Source: Gemmatimonadota bacterium (GTDB taxonomy: Bacteria > Gemmatimonadota > Gemmatimonadetes > Palauibacterales > Palauibacteraceae). From it: 46,327 nucleotides of DNA. Position 1 is the stretch's first letter. Each line of letters begins with the position of its first letter. The translations under genes and the position numbers were made by a program. Of this stretch, positions 1,976 to 13,803 are shown in pieces. The notes below the pieces were generated by a model. That model was not told where the DNA came from and did no database searches. It saw nothing but the letters and a program-made list of their open reading frames with translations. Location of the stretch: contig JAOTZH010000004.1 of NCBI GenBank assembly GCA_029861425.1, positions 1 to 46,327 on the forward strand, given 5' to 3'.

Positions 1976-3868
1976 TCAGCGGGGTTTTCGGTAAGCCAAC
2001 AGCAGGTTGCCGGGCATCTCGTTGAACATGTCGTAGCCCGACATGACCAGCACAGTGCCTCGCGCGACCACGGGGCCGGGGCCGTCGATCGAACCGCCAC
2101 GACCGGGGACGCCGTTGACGGTCTCGAACTCCTGAGCCGTGTCGATGTCCCAGAGCAGCGTCCCGTCCTCGGTCGACCACGCCCGCATGTGGCCGTCGAG
2201 ACTGCCGGCCAGAACGGCGCCTTCGATGGCGGTCGCGGCCGCCGAGAAGAACGGCTGACACCCCGGCCGGCCCCCGCACACGGTCATGTCCGGCTCCGCC
2301 TTCCAGATGACCTCGCCGGCACCCAGGTCGAGCGCGTAGACGCCGGTCCCGACGGGCTCGGTTCCGCTCGGGTGGGATAGCTCCCCGGTCCGCGGGTCTC
2401 GCATTACCGCGAACGGGTTGTCCGAGTTCGGGACGTACACCCGGCGTTCATCCGCGGCGATGCCCCAATGGACGCCGCCCAGGGCGCTTCCCTTCCCGAC
2501 CTTCTTCGCCCAAAGGAGCTCGCCGTCGGCGTCCGGGTCGAACGCCCAGACCATCCCGGACTTCTGTCCGGCCACCAGGACCTGGCTCCCATCCGCCTGC
2601 GTGGCGATGATCGGCGACATTCCGAAGTCGAAGTCGGGGCCCGAGTCGACCGGACAGTTCTCGAAGTTCTGGCCGACGGTGCACGCCATGTTCCATGCGT
2701 CGCCGGAAGTGCCCTGGTGCGACCACCGCACCTCCCCGCTCTCCATCTCGATCGCGATGATCGCATCGCTCGTTTCGGTGGCCGGGTGCGTGTAGTTCTC
2801 GCCCGTCCCCACATACAGAAGTCCCCGATCGGCGTCGACGGTCGGGCTGGACCAGATCGGCGCGCCGGACGGACCGAACGTCCGGGTGCCGAGCTCGTTC
2901 TCTCCCACCGGCCGCGCTTCTTCCGCCACGGTTCGGAACCGCCACAGCTCGTCTCCCGTCTCGGCCGACAACGCCACGATGCCGCCGGATGACGTGCAGC
3001 ACTCGTACTCCGGGTTCCCGGCCGAGACGATCTCCATGCTCGAGAGCGGGACGAAGACCTTGCCGTCATGCAGCGTGACCGTCCCGGTGTTCGTGTGATC
3101 TGCGTGAGTCGCCGTGGATCGCCGCCACAACAGCTCGCCGCTCGCGGCGTCGATGGCGTATGCGTTGGCACGGAAGTCCGAGAAGAACGCCGTCTGCCCC
3201 CCGCCCGGGCCGTCTCCGATCGCGATCCCGCCGCGAACCGCGGCCTCGGCGGGGAAGACCCAGTGCACGCAGCCGGTCTCGAGATCGATCGAGTACACCT
3301 CGCCGTACGCGGAACCGATGAGCACCCGATCCCCCACCACGGCGGGCTTCGACCTTACCTGCCCGGCGTCGGGGAACGCGAAAGCCCACGCCAGCTCGAG
3401 GTCGCCGAGGTCACCCGAATCGACCCCGGCGGTCGCGGCGTTCCGATATCCGGCCTCTCCGTGGCCTCCACCCCACCCGGACCAATGCACCTCTCCGCGC
3501 CCGGAGGGCGAGGCGGAGCAGAACGCGGCCTCGGGCATCCGGGTCTCCGTCAACTCCTTGCCAGTCAGCCATTCCGCTACAGCGACCCGCTCGTCGGCGC
3601 TCAGGTCCTCCCCGTGGCGTCGCATCCGTCCCGACGTGAGAGCCGTGAGGATCGCGCGAGGGTTCATGGCGGTCAGCGAGGTAATTCGCGGCGCCCGCGC
3701 CGATTCATCGCCGGAATGACACCCGTTGCAGGTCGACTCGTAGACCGTGTGTCCGACGCTTCCGTCGGCGGGCGGCGGAGCGAGGAGCGGGCGTTCCTGT
3801 GCCCCCAGAGCGACCGGTGCGACCAGAAGAGTCAACGCCGTCAGCGCGACGACTCGATCAGATTTCAT
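1976..3868 (-). CDS. Cytochrome c / PQQ-binding beta-propeller dehydrogenase (polyvinyl-alcohol dehydrogenase-like)
   Basis: Exported quinoprotein-type oxidoreductase of 630 aa. A signal peptide (about residues 1-23) is followed by a single c-type heme motif C-N-G-C-H at 47-51. From about residue 150 there are repeated propeller blades with the W-x-F/S-x-D tryptophan-docking pattern of PQQ enzymes (for example E-L-A-W-A-F, A-S-G-E-L-L-W, G-E-V-R-W-S). An N-terminal heme domain before the PQQ propeller is the arrangement known from polyvinyl-alcohol dehydrogenases, which pass electrons from an alcohol to the respiratory chain. The substrate cannot be read from the sequence. The S9 peptidase follows 14 nt downstream. 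Some members of this fold are non-catalytic, so enzymatic activity is inferred from the heme plus propeller combination. Confidence 0.88.
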   Translation of the reverse strand: MKSDRVVALTALTLLVAPVALGAQERPLLAPPPADGSVGHTVYESTCNGCHSGDESARAPRITSLTAMNPRAILTALTSGRMRRHGEDLSADERVAVAEWLTGKELTETRMPEAAFCSASPSGRGEVHWSGWGGGHGEAGYRNAATAGVDSGDLGDLELAWAFAFPDAGQVRSKPAVVGDRVLIGSAYGEVYSIDLETGCVHWVFPAEAAVRGGIAIGDGPGGGQTAFFSDFRANAYAIDAASGELLWRRSTATHADHTNTGTVTLHDGKVFVPLSSMEIVSAGNPEYECCTSSGGIVALSAETGDELWRFRTVAEEARPVGENELGTRTFGPSGAPIWSSPTVDADRGLLYVGTGENYTHPATETSDAIIAIEMESGEVRWSHQGTSGDAWNMACTVGQNFENCPVDSGPDFDFGMSPIIATQADGSQVLVAGQKSGMVWAFDPDADGELLWAKKVGKGSALGGVHWGIAADERRVYVPNSDNPFAVMRDPRTGELSHPSGTEPVGTGVYALDLGAGEVIWKAEPDMTVCGGRPGCQPFFSAAATAIEGAVLAGSLDGHMRAWSTEDGTLLWDIDTAQEFETVNGVPGRGGSIDGPGPVVARGTVLVMSGYDMFNEMPGNLLLAYRKPR

Positions 3869-5034: not shown

Positions 5035-5775
5035 GTGATGATCCGAACACTCGTCCTGGCCGCGGCCGTCGCGGGCACCGGCTGCAACGCCGCGGCGCTC
5101 GGGCCACCGGACGCCGACCTGAGCATCCTCTTCGTGGGGAACAGCCTGACGTACACCAACGACCTCCCTGGCATGCTCGAGCGGATGCTCGAGGCCTATG
5201 GTGACGTTGGAGAGGTCCATGTGGAGTCGGTCGCTTTCCCGAACTTCGGGCTACCGGACCACTGGGCGGAGGGCTCGGCTCTCCAGCGGATTCGGACCGG
5301 CGGATGGGACTACGTGGTCATCCAGCAGGGCCCGTCCGCGACCGAGGGTCGGCCGTCGCTGCTGGAGTACAGCGAGCGCTTCGCCACCGAAGTGGCCGAG
5401 GACGGAGGCAGGCTGGCCCTCTACATGGTCTGGCCGGCGACGAACCGGTTTTTCGATTTCGACGGCGTCGCGGATTCCTATGCGACAGCCGCCTCCGAGA
5501 ACGGCGCCCTCCTGTTCCCCGCAGGGGAGGCCTGGCGCGAGGCATGGGCGATCGACGCGGGGCTCGACCTCTACAGCGCGGACGGGTTCCACCCGTCGCT
5601 CCTGGGCACGCACCTGGCAGCCCTCGTGATGTTCGAGCAGCTCACCGGGCGCGACCCGAGGACGCTGCCGGCGGAGATCCCCACCTCGAGTGGCACGGTG
5701 ACGCTCATGATCGAGCTGGGGGATGTTCTGCACGACGCCGCGGTCGCCGCGAACGCTAAACACGCGCTCCCGTAG
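5035..5775 (+). CDS. SGNH/GDSL-type hydrolase, probable lipoprotein
   Basis: Small exported hydrolase of 246 aa, likely acting on an ester or acetyl group at the cell surface. The first 17 residues form a short hydrophobic leader ending in A-G-T-G-C, a weak lipobox. Block I of the SGNH fold is F-V-G-N-S-L-T-Y with Ser37. The C-terminal D-G-F-H-P-S supplies the catalytic Asp183 and His186. The region between has the alternating strand/helix pattern of the fold. The start is GTG at 5035 or ATG at 5038, both after GGAG at 5021. The next gene begins 76 nt downstream on the same strand. The substrate is unknown; similar proteins are often annotated only as SGNH/GDSL hydrolase. Confidence 0.83.
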   Translation: MMIRTLVLAAAVAGTGCNAAALGPPDADLSILFVGNSLTYTNDLPGMLERMLEAYGDVGEVHVESVAFPNFGLPDHWAEGSALQRIRTGGWDYVVIQQGPSATEGRPSLLEYSERFATEVAEDGGRLALYMVWPATNRFFDFDGVADSYATAASENGALLFPAGEAWREAWAIDAGLDLYSADGFHPSLLGTHLAALVMFEQLTGRDPRTLPAEIPTSSGTVTLMIELGDVLHDAAVAANAKHALP

Positions 5776-5851
5776 ACCGCGGCCTCTGGTCGTTTCCCGC
5801 CCTCGCGGGCATTTTCGGACCGTTCCGACTACCCGTGCCCGAGAGGTCCGA

Positions 5852-6964
5852 ATGACGACGTCGACTCGCCGCCTCCAGGCGGTCGTGCTCTTTGCCGCCA
5901 GCGCCTGCCTCGCACTCACGATGCCGCTCGCGGCCCAGGATCCGTCCCCCGCGCAGATCGACGCGGTCTTTGCCGATTTCGACGCGGCGAGCTCTCCAGG
6001 GTGCGCGCTGGGGGTCTATCGAGATGGCGAGCTGGTGTATGAGAAGGGTTACGGCATGGCCAACCTCGACTGGGGCATCGAGATCGATCCGTCGACCGTG
6101 TTCTACGTGGGGTCGGTCTCGAAACAGTTCACCGCCGCCGCGATCGCCCTGCTTGCCCGCGGCGGGCAGCTCTCGCTGAACGACGACATCCGGGAGTTCC
6201 TGCCCGAGCTACCGGAGTACGACACTCCGGTGACGGTCGGGCACCTCGTGCATCACACCGGCGGCATGATGGACATGTACGCCGCCATGATGGACTCGGG
6301 CATGAACATCTTCGACCCGATCGAGAATGGCGAGGCGGTCGAAGTCCTGGCGTCAAAACCGCTCGACTTCGAGCCGGGAGACAGATTCAGCTACAGCAAC
6401 GGCGGCTACTTTCTGCTGTCGCAGATCGTCGAGCGGGCGAGCGGCATGTCGTTCACGGAATTCACGACGACGAACCTCTTCGAGCCGCTCGGGATGGGAG
6501 ATACCCATTTCCACGGGGATGCCGGGCATATCGTCCCGCGGCGGGCGATGAGCTACGAGGGCGGGAATTCCGGTGAACTCAGACAGAACTACGTGTCGAC
6601 GTTCGGCTTCGTCGGACAGGGCGGCTTGTATACGACGGTCGGAGACCTGATCAAATGGGACCGAAACTTCTACGAGAGCCGCGTCGGCGGGGCGGGATTC
6701 ACGGAGTTCGTGGAAACCCGGGGCGTGCTGAATGGCGGAGAAACGATCGACTACGCGTTCGGCCTCCGACACGCGGTATATCGCGGACAACACACGGTCG
6801 GACATTCCGGCGGCATGATGGGGTTTCGGGCGTACATGGAGCGGTTCCCGGACCAGCGGTTCACGGTCTCGGCCCTCTGTAATCAGTCGGAGATCGACCC
6901 CGGAGTGCTCGCTCGAAAGGTCGCCGATCTCTATCTGGCCGACGTGCTCGAGTCCGGCTCCTGA
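5852..6964 (+). CDS. Serine hydrolase, class C beta-lactamase family
   Basis: Secreted penicillin-binding-protein-like hydrolase of 370 aa. A signal peptide (about 1-29, ending L-A-A-Q) is followed by the active-site S-V-S-K at 88-91, the second motif Y-S-N at 181-183, and H-S-G-G at 318-321 in place of the K-T-G box, as in many esterase or D-aminopeptidase members. The ATG at 5852 is chosen because GAGAGG precedes it and a leader peptide follows; the frame is open further upstream without protein-like sequence. Likely roles are peptidoglycan-related peptidase or esterase; antibiotic resistance is not implied. It is followed 31 nt later by the methyltransferase gene. Confidence 0.92.
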   Translation: MTTSTRRLQAVVLFAASACLALTMPLAAQDPSPAQIDAVFADFDAASSPGCALGVYRDGELVYEKGYGMANLDWGIEIDPSTVFYVGSVSKQFTAAAIALLARGGQLSLNDDIREFLPELPEYDTPVTVGHLVHHTGGMMDMYAAMMDSGMNIFDPIENGEAVEVLASKPLDFEPGDRFSYSNGGYFLLSQIVERASGMSFTEFTTTNLFEPLGMGDTHFHGDAGHIVPRRAMSYEGGNSGELRQNYVSTFGFVGQGGLYTTVGDLIKWDRNFYESRVGGAGFTEFVETRGVLNGGETIDYAFGLRHAVYRGQHTVGHSGGMMGFRAYMERFPDQRFTVSALCNQSEIDPGVLARKVADLYLADVLESGS

Positions 6965-6995
6965 CCACCACGCGAATGGAGGAAGGCGAACAGCG

Positions 6996-7781
6996 ATGAC
7001 GATGACAGTCCGTCCGGCGGCAGTCGATGCAAAGGAACTCCGCGCCGGAATCAGCGCGAAGTACGAGGAAGTCGCGTTGACACCCGAGAAGGGTTTTCAC
7101 TTCCATACGGGGACGCCCCTCGCGGCGATGCTCGAGTACGACGCGGCGATGGTCGATTGGCTGCCCGCGGGGACCGTCGCTTCGTTCGCGGGAACCGGGA
7201 ACCCGTTCTCGATGGGTGATCTCGAACCCGGGGAGACCGTCCTCGATATCGGTTGCGGCGCCGGCATGGATACGCTGATCGCGGCGAAGCAGGTGGGACC
7301 GGATGGCCAAGTCGTCGCGGTCGATATGACGGCCGCAATGCTGGGCAAGGCACGTCGCGGAGCCGGGGAAGCGGGGCTCTCCAACATCAGTTTCCGAGAA
7401 GGCCTCGCCGAGAGTCTCCCGGCCGACGACGCAACCATCGATGTCGTCATCTCGAACGGCGTGGTCAACCTGTGCCCGGACAAGATCCGAACCATGAAGG
7501 AAGTCCACCGGGTGCTCAGGCCGGGAGGCCGATTCCAGATCGCCGACATCGTCGTCCACAAGGAGGTGCCCCAGGGCGCCAAGGACGACATCGAGCTCTG
7601 GTCCGGCTGAATCGCGGGGGCTCTGCTGGAAGCAGAGTGGAACTGGGTTCTCGATCATGTGGGCTTTGACGGCGTGCGTTGGGGCAGGCAGATCGACGTG
7701 TTCTCGGGCTCGAAGCACGAGTCGTCGGCCGCGGCCTTCGATACATTCGGCGTGACGTTCGCGGCTACCCGACGGGGCTGA
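6996..7781 (+). CDS. ArsM-like SAM-dependent methyltransferase, probable selenoprotein (in-frame TGA at 7608-7610)
   Basis: Class I SAM-dependent methyltransferase resembling the arsenite methyltransferase (ArsM) group. Motif I D-I-G-C-G-A-G is at 84-90, followed by an acidic strand end (V-A-V-D-M) and the post-motif E-V-H-R-V-L-R-P-G-G. A good Shine-Dalgarno (GGAGGAAGG) precedes the ATG. Codon 205 is TGA, but the frame then continues for 56 codons (I-A-G-A-L-L-E-A-E-W and onward) to TGA at 7779-7781. This tail matches the C-terminal part expected of the family and fills the gap up to the convergent sterol desaturase. ArsM proteins carry a conserved Cys just before G-A-L, the metalloid-binding Cys174 of the algal enzyme, and the TGA sits at that place. 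A SECIS-like hairpin follows the TGA. Only Cys87 and Cys160 are otherwise present, so arsenite as substrate is not assured. Read without Sec insertion, the product stops at 204 aa. The alternatives are a nonsense mutation or a sequencing error. Confidence 0.85.
7608..7638 (+). promoter_or_regulatory. Putative bacterial SECIS element after UGA codon
   Basis: The UGA at 7608-7610 is followed by a hairpin: CTCTGC (7621-7626), loop TGGAA (7627-7631), GCAGAG (7632-7637). All six pairs are Watson-Crick, and a G-U pair at 7620/7638 can extend the stem. The apical loop begins 16 nt after the UGA and has G at its second and third positions. Bacterial SECIS elements lie directly downstream of the Sec codon, with a similar UGA-to-loop distance and a G near the start of the loop. 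No selA, selB, selC or selD gene is in the window. Confidence 0.75.
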
Positions 7782-7787
7782 CCGAGG

Positions 7788-8606
7788 CTAGTCCTGGCGA
7801 TCTTCGGTGTGGTCTGGTCGCGGCCGGCGGCGGAACGGCATCGCGAGCATTCCGGTGAGCGTCGACCACTCCTCCCGTTCGACGTGCTCGAGGCCGAGCG
7901 ACAGATCGCTCGGATCGTCGCGGAGCCTGAAGCTCCCGAACAGGCGGTCCCACACCGACAAGACGCTCGCGTAGTTCGAGTCGGTTTCCGGCTGATAGTC
8001 CGAGTGGTGCACCCAGTGCATCCATGGTGTGACGATCAGCCACCGGAGACTCCGGTCGATGACGCCAGGGATGCGAACGTTGCTGTGGTGGAAGAGGATG
8101 ATGGGTAGAAGAACCGTCTCGTAGATCAACACCTCCTGCACCGTGAGGCCGAGCAGTGGGAGCACGGCGAGTCTTGCAAGGGACGAGAGAACGATCTCGC
8201 CCGTGTGGAAGCGAAGACCCGTCGTGACATCCAGATCGCGATCCGCGTGGTGCACGGCGTGGAATCGCCACAGGAGGGGCACGGCGTGGTTGAGCCGGTG
8301 CCAGGCATACTGCCACAGGTCGAACAGGACCACGGCCAAGATCGTCCGGGCGACACCCTCGAGCGGAAGTGCGTGAAGCAGTCCGAACGACCGCGCCGAC
8401 GCCCACTCGGTGACCAGCAACGTCGCGGCGGCAAAGACGGCGGCGTTGAGCACGGCGTTGCCCAACCCCAGTGCCAGGTTCGACACACCGTGCCGGCCGC
8501 GAGCCTGCCGCCCTTCGAACATCGGCGCGATGCCCTCGAGCATCCACAACACGGCGAGACCCGCCGCTGCGGCGGCAGGCTTGGTCAGGTCTGCGAGCTC
8601 GATCAA
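7788..8606 (-). CDS. Sterol desaturase / fatty acid hydroxylase family membrane protein
   Basis: Integral membrane di-iron hydroxylase of 272 aa. The histidine clusters that bind the two irons are visible: H-R-L-N-H at 103-107, H-A-V-H-H at 116-120, the H-H pair at 173-174, and H-W-V-H-H at 197-201. Four to five hydrophobic segments surround them. The family hydroxylates or desaturates sterols, fatty acids or alkylglycerols using O2; the substrate here is unknown. The start is TTG at 8606, preceded by GAGGAACC. The gene is convergent with the methyltransferase, with six bases between the stops. Its 5' end abuts a response-regulator relic, so it may lie at the edge of an old rearrangement. Confidence 0.9.
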   Translation of the reverse strand: MIELADLTKPAAAAAGLAVLWMLEGIAPMFEGRQARGRHGVSNLALGLGNAVLNAAVFAAATLLVTEWASARSFGLLHALPLEGVARTILAVVLFDLWQYAWHRLNHAVPLLWRFHAVHHADRDLDVTTGLRFHTGEIVLSSLARLAVLPLLGLTVQEVLIYETVLLPIILFHHSNVRIPGVIDRSLRWLIVTPWMHWVHHSDYQPETDSNYASVLSVWDRLFGSFRLRDDPSDLSLGLEHVEREEWSTLTGMLAMPFRRRPRPDHTEDRQD

Positions 8607-8737: not shown

Positions 8738-9487
8738 TCAGCGGCGTGGCACCGTGATGACCTGACCGGCATAGATCCGACTTCCGTCGAGGTTGTTCGC
8801 CGCTCGTAGCTCGCGAACCGTCGTTCCGTGATCACGCGCGATCTCCCAGAGCGAGTCGCCCGAACGCACGTAATACTCCTGCTCCGCATCAGTCGAAGCC
8901 GCGGCCAGACGCTGGACGTATGTCTCGTATTGGTCCGGGAAGAGAGCCACGTGGTAGTGGGGCGGCCGCCGCTCGTAGGTCGCCTCGAGCACTCCCTTCC
9001 CCTCCAACTGCATCAGGACCCCTTCGAGCCATGAGCGGCAGGATGAGCGGCTGCTCCTGCGAAGGTCGAGAGCCATGCCGGTGGGGTGCACAGACCGGGG
9101 TGAGGCGTTCCGCGGTTGTCGGGACCAGGGCCGCGTGAGGCTCGTCACGACGAGCTTCTCTCCACAGGCGTTTCGGTACTGGCTGCCGAGCCGCTTCATG
9201 AAGAGCGCCACCGCGGGACGGGCGTAGGGCACGACGCCGGACTTGACCTCGTAGTCGGCGGTGCTTCGCACCGCCACGAGGTATCCGGCCGCCACGAACC
9301 GCCGTGCCTGCTCGGTCGTATCGAGAAACGTGTAGTCGTGCGACCGGGCCATCGAGTTCTGGCGATCGAGCGATGGCGTGGACCCGCGCAGACTCTGCGC
9401 CTCGACCGGAAACGCGGTCGCGGCGACGGCCAGCAACGCGAGCGGGCACGTGCGTGCCCGCGACCATGACTTGAACCCTGTTCTCAC
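8738..9487 (-). CDS. DUF5715-type (M15-like) peptidase with C-terminal LysM domain
   Basis: Exported cell-wall protein of 249 aa from the GTG at 9487, which is preceded by a GGGGGG run and begins a clear signal peptide (ending near V-E-A-Q). An ATG at 9586 would add 33 residues that do not look like a leader. The central domain has S-V-H-P-T-G-M-A-L-D-L (His134, Asp141) and P-H-Y-H-V (His177/His179), the zinc-ligand pattern of D-Ala-D-Ala carboxypeptidase-like M15 peptidases. Residues 206-248 form one LysM repeat (Y-Y-V-R-S-G-D-S-L-W-E-I-A to V-I-T-V-P), which binds peptidoglycan. It probably cleaves or remodels the cell wall. It is divergent from the di-heme oxidoreductase operon. Confidence 0.85.
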   Translation of the reverse strand: MRTGFKSWSRARTCPLALLAVAATAFPVEAQSLRGSTPSLDRQNSMARSHDYTFLDTTEQARRFVAAGYLVAVRSTADYEVKSGVVPYARPAVALFMKRLGSQYRNACGEKLVVTSLTRPWSRQPRNASPRSVHPTGMALDLRRSSRSSCRSWLEGVLMQLEGKGVLEATYERRPPHYHVALFPDQYETYVQRLAAASTDAEQEYYVRSGDSLWEIARDHGTTVRELRAANNLDGSRIYAGQVITVPRR

Positions 9488-9607
9488 GTACGCCCCCCGA
9501 ATACCGATTCCCCCTCCCAACGACACATAATCTTGAATGAACGTCGGCCGGATTGCCAGTTCCGAGGTCCGGACAGCGCTTGACACCCACTCGGCCCATC
9601 GCCGATA

Positions 9608-11345: not shown

Positions 11346-12538
11346 TGACGAGCTGCCGTCGTCTTCTGCTCGCGATCATTGCGGCGACCGGAACGCTGGG
11401 ACTCGCGGCCGCCGAGGCGCAGGAGACCGGGGACGCCGCAACCCGCGACACCCTCGACCGCCCCTTCGTGCGTGGCGGGCGGGGCGACCGCCCGTACCTC
11501 TTCGACCTGGCCGGCCGACTCGCCCTGGGCGGATACGCCGAGGCACACCTCCGATACGAGCGTGAGGACGGGGTCACGGAGGATCTTGGATTCGAAGCGA
11601 AGCGCTTCAACCTCTTCTTCAACTCCCAGATCAGCGATTTCGTGCGATTCGGGGCCGAGCTCGAGTTCGAGGATGCCGCTCGTGAAGTCAAGCTCGAATT
11701 CATGACGATCGACCTGCTGCTGCACCGCGCATTCGGCGTGCGAGGCGGCATGATCCTCGTCCCTCTCGGCCGATTCAACCTCTCTCACGACAGCCCGAGA
11801 AACCCGTTCACGGACCGACCCTTGGTCTCGACCGACATCCTCTCGGTCGCGCTCTCCCAGCCGGGTCTCGGAGCATTCGGAGCGATCCCGCTCGAGGGAA
11901 CCGCGCGCTTCACATACGAGGCGTACGCGATCAACGGCTTCAACGAAGGGGTTCTCGACGACGAAGAAGGTACCCGGCTGCCCGCGGGCCGTGAGAACTT
12001 CGAGAACAACAACCGACGACTGTCGTGGGTCGGCCGAATCGCGTTCAGCCCAAACACGGACGCCGATTTCGGGATCTCGGGAATGCACGGGCAGTACAAC
12101 GTCTCGACTCTCGACGGCGAGACGATCGACGAGGGCCGCAGCGTGTCGATCGGTGCCGTGGACTGGGACTTCGACCAGGGTCTCTTCCAGATAAGCGGCG
12201 AGGCGGCCGCGGCCGAGATCGACGTGCCCGAATCGCTCGAAGGTCTGTTCGCGACCGGGCAGTGGGGCGTGTACACGGACGTCATCGTTCCGTTCGGGTC
12301 GGGATGGCTCGCCACCATGCCGCGCTCGCGGTTCGAGGCCAAGGCCAGAGTGGATTACGCCGACCTCGACCGGCACCTCCCGGGAGACGACCGGTTCCGA
12401 TTCTCGATCGGGGTCAACTTCCGTCCGACCTCCGACACGGTGTTCAAGCTCGACTACTTCAAGGGTCGAGCCCACGACCGGTTCAACAACGCCGCCGACC
12501 AGGCCGGCATCCTCTTCTCCGCGGCCACGTACTTCTAG
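11342..12538 (+). CDS. Outer-membrane porin-like beta-barrel protein
   Basis: Exported 398-aa protein starting at tandem ATG codons that overlap the Rieske stop by 4 nt. A signal peptide ends near A-E-A-Q. The mature part shows many alternating amphipathic strands (for example G-Y-A-E-A-H-L-R-Y-E, F-V-R-F-G-A-E-L-E-F, F-R-F-S-I-G-V-N-F) and ends in F at the C-terminus, as recognised by the BAM complex. It resembles phosphate-selective OprO/OprP-like porins, but I cannot assign a solute. The tight coupling to two redox proteins suggests that it brings in, or anchors, the partner of that system. Confidence 0.82.
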   Translation: MMTSCRRLLLAIIAATGTLGLAAAEAQETGDAATRDTLDRPFVRGGRGDRPYLFDLAGRLALGGYAEAHLRYEREDGVTEDLGFEAKRFNLFFNSQISDFVRFGAELEFEDAAREVKLEFMTIDLLLHRAFGVRGGMILVPLGRFNLSHDSPRNPFTDRPLVSTDILSVALSQPGLGAFGAIPLEGTARFTYEAYAINGFNEGVLDDEEGTRLPAGRENFENNNRRLSWVGRIAFSPNTDADFGISGMHGQYNVSTLDGETIDEGRSVSIGAVDWDFDQGLFQISGEAAAAEIDVPESLEGLFATGQWGVYTDVIVPFGSGWLATMPRSRFEAKARVDYADLDRHLPGDDRFRFSIGVNFRPTSDTVFKLDYFKGRAHDRFNNAADQAGILFSAATYF

Positions 12539-12603
12539 GCGGACAACCTCCCCGGCGAGATCGCGGTTGCCCGACGACGACCCGGCCGGCAAGGTGGGCG
12601 GTC

Positions 12604-13803
12604 ATGACGAGCCGCTTCGATGTCGCCGTAGTCGGCGCCGGGATCGTTGGCCTCTCCACGGCGCGAGCCATCGGGTTTGCCCGTCCGGGGCTCTCGATCG
12701 TGATCCTCGAGAAGGAAGAGGAGATCGCGACCCACCAGACGGGCCGGAACAGCGGCGTCGTCCACGCCGGCCTGTACTACCGACCGGGCTCACTCAAGGC
12801 GAGGCTGTGCGTCGAGGGCGGCCCGCGTCTGCTCGAGTTCTGTGACGAGCGCGGGATCGACACCACGCAAGCGGGCAAGATCGTCGTCGCCACGTCCGCT
12901 TCTCAGCTCCCGGCTCTCGCCGAGCTCGAGCGGCGGGCTGGCGCGAACGGGGTGCGGGTCGTCCGGGTCGGCCCGGACGAGATCTGCGAGCATGAACCGG
13001 AGGCTCGCGGCGTCGAGGGCCTTCGGGTCCCTTTTACCGGCGCGGTGGAATTCAGGGACGTGGCGCGCGCGTTCGCGGAAGACCTGATCCGTGACGGCGC
13101 CGAGGTGCGGACCGGACACGGCGTACTCTCGTCGCGATCGTCCTCGTCCGGGCGGATCCTCGAAACCGTCGGCGGGCCGATCGAGTGCTCGCTCGTGGTG
13201 AACTGCGCCGGGCTGCACGTCGACCGAATCGCTCGACTGCTGGGCACCGAACCAGGAGTGAAGGTGCTGCCTTTTCGGGGCGAGTACTGGAGTCTGACAC
13301 CGGACGCCGCCGCTCGCGTGCGCGGGCACATCTATCCGGTGCCCGACCCGCGATTCCCACACCTCGGCGTTCATTTCACGCGTGATGTCCGAGGTCGAGT
13401 GGAGATCGGGCCGAACGCCGTCTGGGCCTGGGGGCGAGAGGCATACGGACGTCTGTCCGGGAACCCGCGAGATGCGCTCGAGACCCTCTCGTATCGAGGG
13501 TTCTGGAACCTCGCCCGTCGACACTGGCGCACCGGTCTGGGGGAACAGTGGCGCTCGATGAGCCGCGCGGCGTTTGTCCGGAGAGCCCGACAACTGGTGC
13601 CTCGGCTCGACGCCCGGGACCTCGACCAGTGGCGGTCGGGCGTCCGCGCACAGGCAGTGGATACGGACGGGGCCTTGATATACGACTTCCTGATCCTCCA
13701 GAGCCCGGGCGTGGTGAACGTCATAAATGCCCCGTCCCCCGCAGCGACGTCCTGTCTCTCGATCGGCGAGCATATCGCAGCGATCGCTCTGGAGCAGTTG
13801 TGA
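12604..13803 (+). CDS. lhgO: L-2-hydroxyglutarate oxidase (FAD-dependent)
   Basis: Flavoprotein of 399 aa in the DAO family that oxidises L-2-hydroxyglutarate to 2-oxoglutarate and passes electrons to the quinone pool. The dinucleotide-binding G-A-G-I-V-G is at 11-16. Family signatures include T-G-R-N-S-G-V-V-H-A-G-L-Y-Y after the first strand-helix unit, P-F-R-G-E-Y near the middle, and a C-terminal S-P-G-V-V-N-V-I-N-A-P-S-P-A-A-T-S segment. GGTGG precedes the ATG. It starts 65 nt after the porin stop on the same strand, so it may be the last gene of that operon, or metabolically independent of it. It is convergent with the thiolase across a hairpin. Confidence 0.93.
   Translation: MTSRFDVAVVGAGIVGLSTARAIGFARPGLSIVILEKEEEIATHQTGRNSGVVHAGLYYRPGSLKARLCVEGGPRLLEFCDERGIDTTQAGKIVVATSASQLPALAELERRAGANGVRVVRVGPDEICEHEPEARGVEGLRVPFTGAVEFRDVARAFAEDLIRDGAEVRTGHGVLSSRSSSSGRILETVGGPIECSLVVNCAGLHVDRIARLLGTEPGVKVLPFRGEYWSLTPDAAARVRGHIYPVPDPRFPHLGVHFTRDVRGRVEIGPNAVWAWGREAYGRLSGNPRDALETLSYRGFWNLARRHWRTGLGEQWRSMSRAAFVRRARQLVPRLDARDLDQWRSGVRAQAVDTDGALIYDFLILQSPGVVNVINAPSPAATSCLSIGEHIAAIALEQL

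Follow-up and report, generated by a model that had tools for sequence, protein, structure and literature searches.

The window analysed here is the whole stretch of 46,327 nucleotides from Gemmatimonadota contig JAOTZH010000004.1, and the gene of interest lies on its forward strand at positions 6996 to 7778. The frame opens with an ATG at 6996, meets an in-frame TGA at codon 205 (7608-7610) and runs on for 56 codons to a terminal stop TGA at 7779-7781; a convergent gene for a fatty-acid hydroxylase ends at 7788, 6 nt past that stop. Read with selenocysteine (Sec) at the internal TGA, the gene encodes a stand-alone ArsM-like SAM methyltransferase of 261 residues, as judged from the frame, from Pfam matches of the N-terminal part to Methyltransf_31, Methyltransf_25 and Methyltransf_11 (Methyltransf_31 at 116 bits) and from homologues that align on both sides of the TGA. 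A purine-rich stretch resembling a ribosome binding site, GGAGGAAGG, was recognized by eye at 6978-6986 on the same strand, and the upstream gene, coding for a beta-lactamase-fold serine hydrolase (5723-6964, forward strand), stops 31 nt before the ATG and is possibly co-transcribed with the methyltransferase gene. On recheck, the positions given in the original prediction for the frame, the TGA, the second stop, the convergent gap and the hairpin discussed below were all correct. We also considered the terminal TGA at 7779 as a second Sec codon and rejected it: most homologues are 255-266 residues long and end near there (L057 and L059 are longer, and for some the start is uncertain or the contig stops within the gene), and any extension would overlap the hydroxylase gene in antisense. 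Elsewhere in the window there are a PQQ-type beta-propeller with a cytochrome domain (1976-3868), a DUF5715 and LysM protein (8738-9586) and an FAD-dependent oxidoreductase of the DAO type (12025-13803).

Sixty genomes from the window's own genome outward through its genus, family, order and class were searched for homologues, and among the matches listed 13 carried one internal TGA, spread over 12 genomes with the window's own included; the TGA stood at the same codon in all 12 aligned matches, with conserved blocks on both sides. A blind survey then used residues 1-203 as query against one genome each of 84,980 species, so that codon 205 played no part, with the peptide patterns SFAG[VT]GNP[HF] and V[LV]D[LV]GSGAG; the first pattern is biased towards the Sec clade, though column 205 was unused. 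From 431 confirmed stretches the 80 best were kept, so that the shares among them are not those of all genomes; TGA was found at codon 205 in 33 loci, a Cys codon in 3 loci without the other two arsenic-site cysteines (the lone-Cys loci), and the remaining 44 were Cys ArsM-type proteins. Together with the window and with 10 Sec and 15 Cys relatives from the 60-genome search, these made 106 rows, with TGA in 44 and Cys in 62 at column 205; the 10 and 15 relatives were chosen with their state known, so 26 of the 106 rows are not blind, and the rows are related, hence their counts are not independent. Four rows were left out (L015, on the same contig as L090; L021; L022; and the fragment L034), and the L068 row, which is one column out of register (T, N, G), was counted as Sec by eye. 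The Sec loci are labelled as Chloroflexota and its classes, Thermomicrobiaceae, Gemmatimonadota, Actinomycetota groups, Alphaproteobacteria, Acidobacteria, Planctomycetota and Nitrospirae, and the Sec rows span about eight phyla. The pattern of TGA at codon 205 is far more than chance. It was suggested originally that homologues be examined for Cys or TGA at this position, and exactly this pairing was found; the contrary outcome named there, an unrelated residue without Cys/Sec variation, did not occur.

Downstream of the TGA, on the same strand at 7620-7638, lies a hairpin of 8 pairs with the loop GGA (7628-7630), 17 nt after the UGA, and a folding energy of -10.3 kcal/mol. The perfect 6-bp stem first described (7621-7626 with 7632-7637) extends to 7620-7627 with 7631-7638, and its claimed bacterial SECIS geometry was borne out by the bSECIS rules, which we coded anew as they are given in PMC13188914 (loop of 3-9 nt with a G in the first two positions, spacing of 16-37 nt, energy of -7.5 kcal/mol or lower). 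Folded alone, the hairpin is moderately unusual (z -1.5, with 14 of 200 shuffles of 56 nt as good), and an energy of -10.3 kcal/mol is reached by 2.5% of synonymous shuffles of the window gene. A single-sequence fold is too weak as proof of a SECIS element, and therefore tests on the family were used in its place. Using 43 of the 44 Sec rows (L018 was left out where its contig ends), 38 genes passed the bSECIS rules compared to 4.8 expected from synonymous-codon shuffles, and 5 failed, whereas none of the 45 Cys homologues tested passed, these being 42 of the 44 Cys loci (without L127 and L132) and the 3 lone-Cys loci, without the 15 Cys relatives. In an ungapped alignment of the 43 segments, 89.0% of the cells were pairing against 73.8% in shuffles, both sides were changed in 43 cells against 14.3, and the covariation score was 0.434 against 0.196 +/- 0.020, with none of 500 shuffles as high. 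Two of the five covariation measures were weaker, namely pairs with double changes (6 versus 4.3, 37 of 500 shuffles as high) and further pair types (14 versus 11.6, 44 of 500 as high). At one pair, 23 sequences have G-C and 16 have the reverse, C-G. Versions of the structure slid along the alignment scored at most 0.147, but a structure drawn from the same sequences tends to beat its slides, and kinship among the rows inflates the comparison with shuffled alignments; we therefore give most weight to the control with Cys homologues and to the shuffles of synonymous codons.

The genome carrying the window also contains most of the machinery for Sec decoding. Because the tRNA-Sec, selB and selD families match in all 14 control genomes at E <= 0.001, only matches over the family cut-offs were counted. 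On this basis a tRNA-Sec with anticodon tca was found at 79.7 bits (cut-off 47; ARAGORN agrees), selB at 311.9 bits (cut-off 242, model positions 1-338) and selD at 243 bits (cut-off 125). The C-terminal part of selB lies at the start of the contig with the tRNA-Sec, and both contigs share the residues LHAADR. The profile search did not find selA in this draft genome, which is 90% complete in 291 contigs; a match of only 31 bits, in an open reading frame with a lipoprotein-like start (on contig C219), was rejected as selA. All 16 of the same-genus genomes have selA over the cut-off. The complete set of genes for which the original prediction had proposed a search was thus recovered except for selA, and the lack of Sec machinery that would have spoken against it did not materialize. 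Two further genes in this genome have a TGA at standard Sec places, a formate dehydrogenase-like gene with SRAUHAPT (L140, below its family's cut-off) and an AhpD-like gene with CRYU (L139). From the machinery together with these two TGAs, Sec decoding is very probably in use in the window's genome. The conserved coding on both sides of the TGA, the SECIS element and the Sec machinery uphold the claim of a selenoprotein, and the sequence support for a real selenoprotein is excellent.

A structural model of the protein (AlphaFold, 12 sequences, mean pLDDT 88.4) found arsenic methyltransferase chains as its thirteen best matches when Foldseek was run against the PDB only, and the structure search and the profile alignment both place the SAM-methyltransferase fold closest to ArsM. 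The similarity to CmArsM (4fr0, 4kw7, 6cx6) and CrArsM (5evj) extends to a TM-score of about 0.6-0.7 and 28-31% identity, although the window protein has 261 residues against 377-387 in those chains. In the profile alignment to CmArsM, counted by hand, Cys224 lies over Sec205, Cys72 over Val/Thr67 and Cys174 over Gly155. The suggestion that Sec stands in place of the conserved metalloid-binding Cys therefore agrees with the alignment, since Sec205 is the Cys224 position. The other two cysteines are lost relative to CmArsM and CrArsM, at the codons for Thr67 (7194-7196) and Gly155 (7458-7460), and the two Cys that the window protein does have, 87 and 160, are elsewhere than the ArsM site positions. 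Equivalents of Cys72 and Cys174 are absent in all 44 Sec rows (L068 by eye), with Thr/Val and Gly instead, whereas each of the 59 Cys-group rows has Cys174 and Cys224, and 58 have Cys72 as well. A further difference is the clade-specific motif FHFxxG, seen in most Sec rows where many ArsMs have a Cys pair; in the window protein it is FHFHTG, residues 34-39, placed at 7095-7112 by computation from the frame. Of the 44 Sec rows, 39 have His at position 35 and 1 has a CC pair within its first 130 residues, a pair found there in 41 of 59 Cys-ArsM rows. Methylation of arsenite by CmArsM needs Cys 72, 174 and 224, and that of methylarsenite needs 174 plus 224 (PMC6950371); a rule given in PMC5552862 expects ArsM enzymes to have at least three of the four cysteines 44, 72, 174 and 224, of which the window protein keeps only the 224 place, as Sec. 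The implied picture of an ArsM with a better metalloid ligand is therefore not the natural one, as the Cys72 and Cys174 equivalents are missing in the Sec rows.

Selenoproteins of this kind have been recorded before. An arsenite methyltransferase with the motif UxxG is an experimentally verified selenoprotein (Fomenko et al. 2007, as listed in PMC13188914), arsenite methyltransferase is named as a selenoprotein in PMC2398784 (2008) and PMC9312934 (2022), and the catalogue in PMC13188914 has an entry PRK11873/NF008823 with the motif UxxG, one Sec and the representative WP_011987699.1. The window protein resembles this entry in its superfamily, its single Sec and its U-I-A-G, which fits UxxG and has its Sec where a PRK11873-like protein aligns with Cys224; WP_011987699.1 itself was compared by its catalogue description. 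Since the published catalogue lists Sec-ArsM with UxxG, the kind is already known and the window gene is a new member of it. The novelty implied at first is not supported, as there are in addition NCBIfam models for Sec-ArsM fusions, three families of which PMC13188914 credits to Haft and Tolstoy 2025. The window protein scored best against the NCBIfam models ArsM_AhpD_UU, PRK11873, ArsM_DUF2284_UU and MTase_UXPK_star but reached the curated cut-off of none of them. It scored 222 bits against NF008823 (cut-off 263), a cut-off reached by none of ten further members (8 Sec, 2 lone-Cys; best 248.7). The scores were 236.6 against a cut-off of 510 for ArsM_AhpD_UU (NF041537), 220.8 against 575 for ArsM_DUF2284_UU (NF041536) and 220.2 against 460 for MTase_UXPK_star (NF047649). 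These three fusion models match within residues 3-233 of the window protein, the matches ending at residue 228-233, and unlike them it has no second domain or second Sec. Because these models score among the best, the methyltransferase halves of the three fusion families may belong to the same Sec clade.

The gene neighbourhoods of the family point partly away from arsenic. A crude picker of open reading frames yielded 131 frames within two genes of the 33 Sec and 3 lone-Cys loci of the clade (36 in all). Filtering kept 119 of them, all but 9 of which (110) were scanned; for comparison, 148 of 156 frames were scanned around 42 Cys-ArsM loci (without L132 and L133). The clade neighbours (110 frames) matched 98 families, and the 25 of these that were listed include rhodanese (6), OsmC (5), ArsR-type HTH (4), TPR (4), DsrE (3), metallo-beta-lactamase (3), MFS (3) and other methyltransferases (3), but neither ArsP nor SBF/ACR3. 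Among the 25 listed of 146 for the Cys-ArsM neighbours (148 frames) there were ArsR-type HTH (9), ArsP permease (5), sigma-70 regions (5) and SBF symporters (2), and none of the sulfur families. Profile counts by locus, 36 clade against 42 Cys-ArsM, were 5 versus 0 for OsmC (two of the five being the lone-Cys loci L061 and L077, and one the outlier L102), 3 versus 0 for DsrE (one being L061) and 5 versus 0 for a rhodanese/metallo-beta-lactamase profile, the seed of which also matches the rhodanese domain of ArsR-type proteins. Three proteins (L055, L059, L073) have the metallo-beta-lactamase and rhodanese pair, which we take to be persulfide-dioxygenase-like. A seed profile built on ArsR plus rhodanese did not separate the groups (6 of 36 versus 7 of 42 loci), presumably because it also matches plain ArsR genes. 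ArsR-type regulators with a C-terminal rhodanese domain lie directly 5' of three Sec genes (L056:3873-4535, L059:175-852, L072:5312-5977), which suggests them as candidate sensors of sulfane sulfur. Neither sulfur nor arsenic genes were present among the ten frames scanned around the window gene, and the sulfur context therefore rests on other species.

From these sequence comparisons we consider it highly probable that the gene encodes a Sec205 selenoprotein, a SAM methyltransferase of the ArsM superfamily that would act on one soft substrate atom through a lone selenolate. SelB and tRNA-Sec would read the UGA at 7608 as Sec, aided by the hairpin at 7620-7638, and the predicted product would be the stand-alone protein of 261 residues with Sec205 at the Cys224 place. 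By comparison of the sequences, the selenolate of Sec205 is the only chalcogen of the ArsM substrate site kept in the Sec clade. It would bind or activate one soft atom of the substrate beside the methyl group of SAM, and that atom would then accept the methyl. As to what this substrate is, sulfur or selenium species come nearest to an even chance in our estimate, an arsenical is a tentative candidate and anything else is rather unlikely; between a reduced-sulfur species and inorganic arsenite, we infer a slight advantage for the former. Binding of a sulfur species by a single selenolate deserves serious consideration beside arsenic, and perhaps, although we would put it at well under even chances, the members of the Sec clade are selenium-dependent methyltransferases of reduced sulfur (sulfide, persulfide or a thiol) or of selenide and not arsenic enzymes, in which one selenolate would take the place of the three-thiol arsenic site and the enzyme would work beside rhodaneses, OsmC, DsrE and persulfide-dioxygenase-like proteins. 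The name arsenite methyltransferase is doubtful for the Sec clade because Cys72 and Cys174 are lost and the families listed for its neighbours include sulfur-type ones but not ArsP or ACR3.

It is also possible, though we hold this only tentatively, that the selenoprotein is still a methyltransferase of As(III) or methylarsenite, with Sec205 joined by ligands other than Cys, such as His35, or by small thiols. Its fold and best structural matches (5evj, 4fr0, 6cx6) are those of arsenic methyltransferases, His35 is conserved, and ArsR-type genes are near some Sec loci; as such regulators lie beside both groups, there is room for arsenic. Moreover, TtArsM of Thermus thermophilus is likewise a single-cysteine enzyme without the usual partners, though with Cys and not Sec, and it methylates arsenite with that one Cys and two proposed His ligands (PMC8649762), so that loss of the partners is compatible with arsenic. 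What speaks against an arsenic substrate is that the partners required in CmArsM (PMC6950371) are lost in every Sec row, and that ArsP and SBF/ACR3, found beside the Cys-ArsM genes, are not among the families listed for the clade. Neither the missing arsenic cysteines nor the sulfur neighbours of Sec-ArsMs were described in the literature covered, which did not include the most relevant paper.

In a maximum likelihood tree of the 106 rows, a branch (100/99) separates 43 Sec and the 3 lone-Cys rows from the rest. The window gene does not join the other Gemmatimonadota rows but forms a group (100/99) with three rows labelled Chloroflexota and one from an unclassified bacterium, and the protein to which its product is most similar, at 69% identity, is from Chloroflexota. 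Among 16 same-genus genomes, 15 gave no match better than E 1e-13, and the other (G004) has only the 5' part (L034:1495-1860, residues 2-123, 70% identity), with no Sec part of the gene at that locus. Lateral transfer from a source near Chloroflexota is the simplest account and the probable origin of the gene; its rarity in the genus indicates that it is recent here, and it may be under weak selection. This rarity, the fragment in G004 and the failure to find selA in the draft are what could be expected if the TGA at 7608 were an ordinary stop, giving a truncated protein of 204 residues or a decaying gene with the downstream frame as a relic. We regard this as very improbable given the TGA at the same codon in 44 rows and about eight phyla, the conserved downstream residues, the covarying SECIS element, and the Sec machinery and further TGAs at Sec places in the genome. 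Decoding of TGA as another amino acid such as Trp through a changed code would also leave frames open across the TGA, but it is negligible in our estimation because TGA ends the window frame at 7779 as well as other family members and the tRNA-Sec with anticodon tca is a dedicated one.

For a Sec205 methyltransferase, a gene finder that halts at the TGA drops the residue on which the enzyme would depend, and homologues that are read through may enter arsenic surveys as arsenite methyltransferases, though without the usual arsenic site. If the substrate is a sulfur species, the catalogued name would be wrong across about eight phyla, and bacteria would methylate sulfur species with selenium, on which we found no study in the literature searched. 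The Sec clade and its three lone-Cys relatives also form a clean set for asking why Sec replaces Cys after loss of the partner thiols. One of these relatives, an Anaerolineae homologue nested in the Sec clade, has TGC for the TGA (L061:6604-6606) and no SECIS-like hairpin, and is probably a natural reversion from Sec to Cys. A Chloroflexi protein (L102) has TGA at the same codon (6472-6474) with Leu and Gly at the other two sites; it is a long branch, a Sec row on the Cys-ArsM side of the tree, and a second origin of Sec or a misplacement is possible. Finally, three Thorarchaeota proteins (L085, L088, L089) share the SFAG motif with the Sec clade and yet have all three cysteines (SFAGCGNP, SNC, GC), and are possibly an intermediate form.
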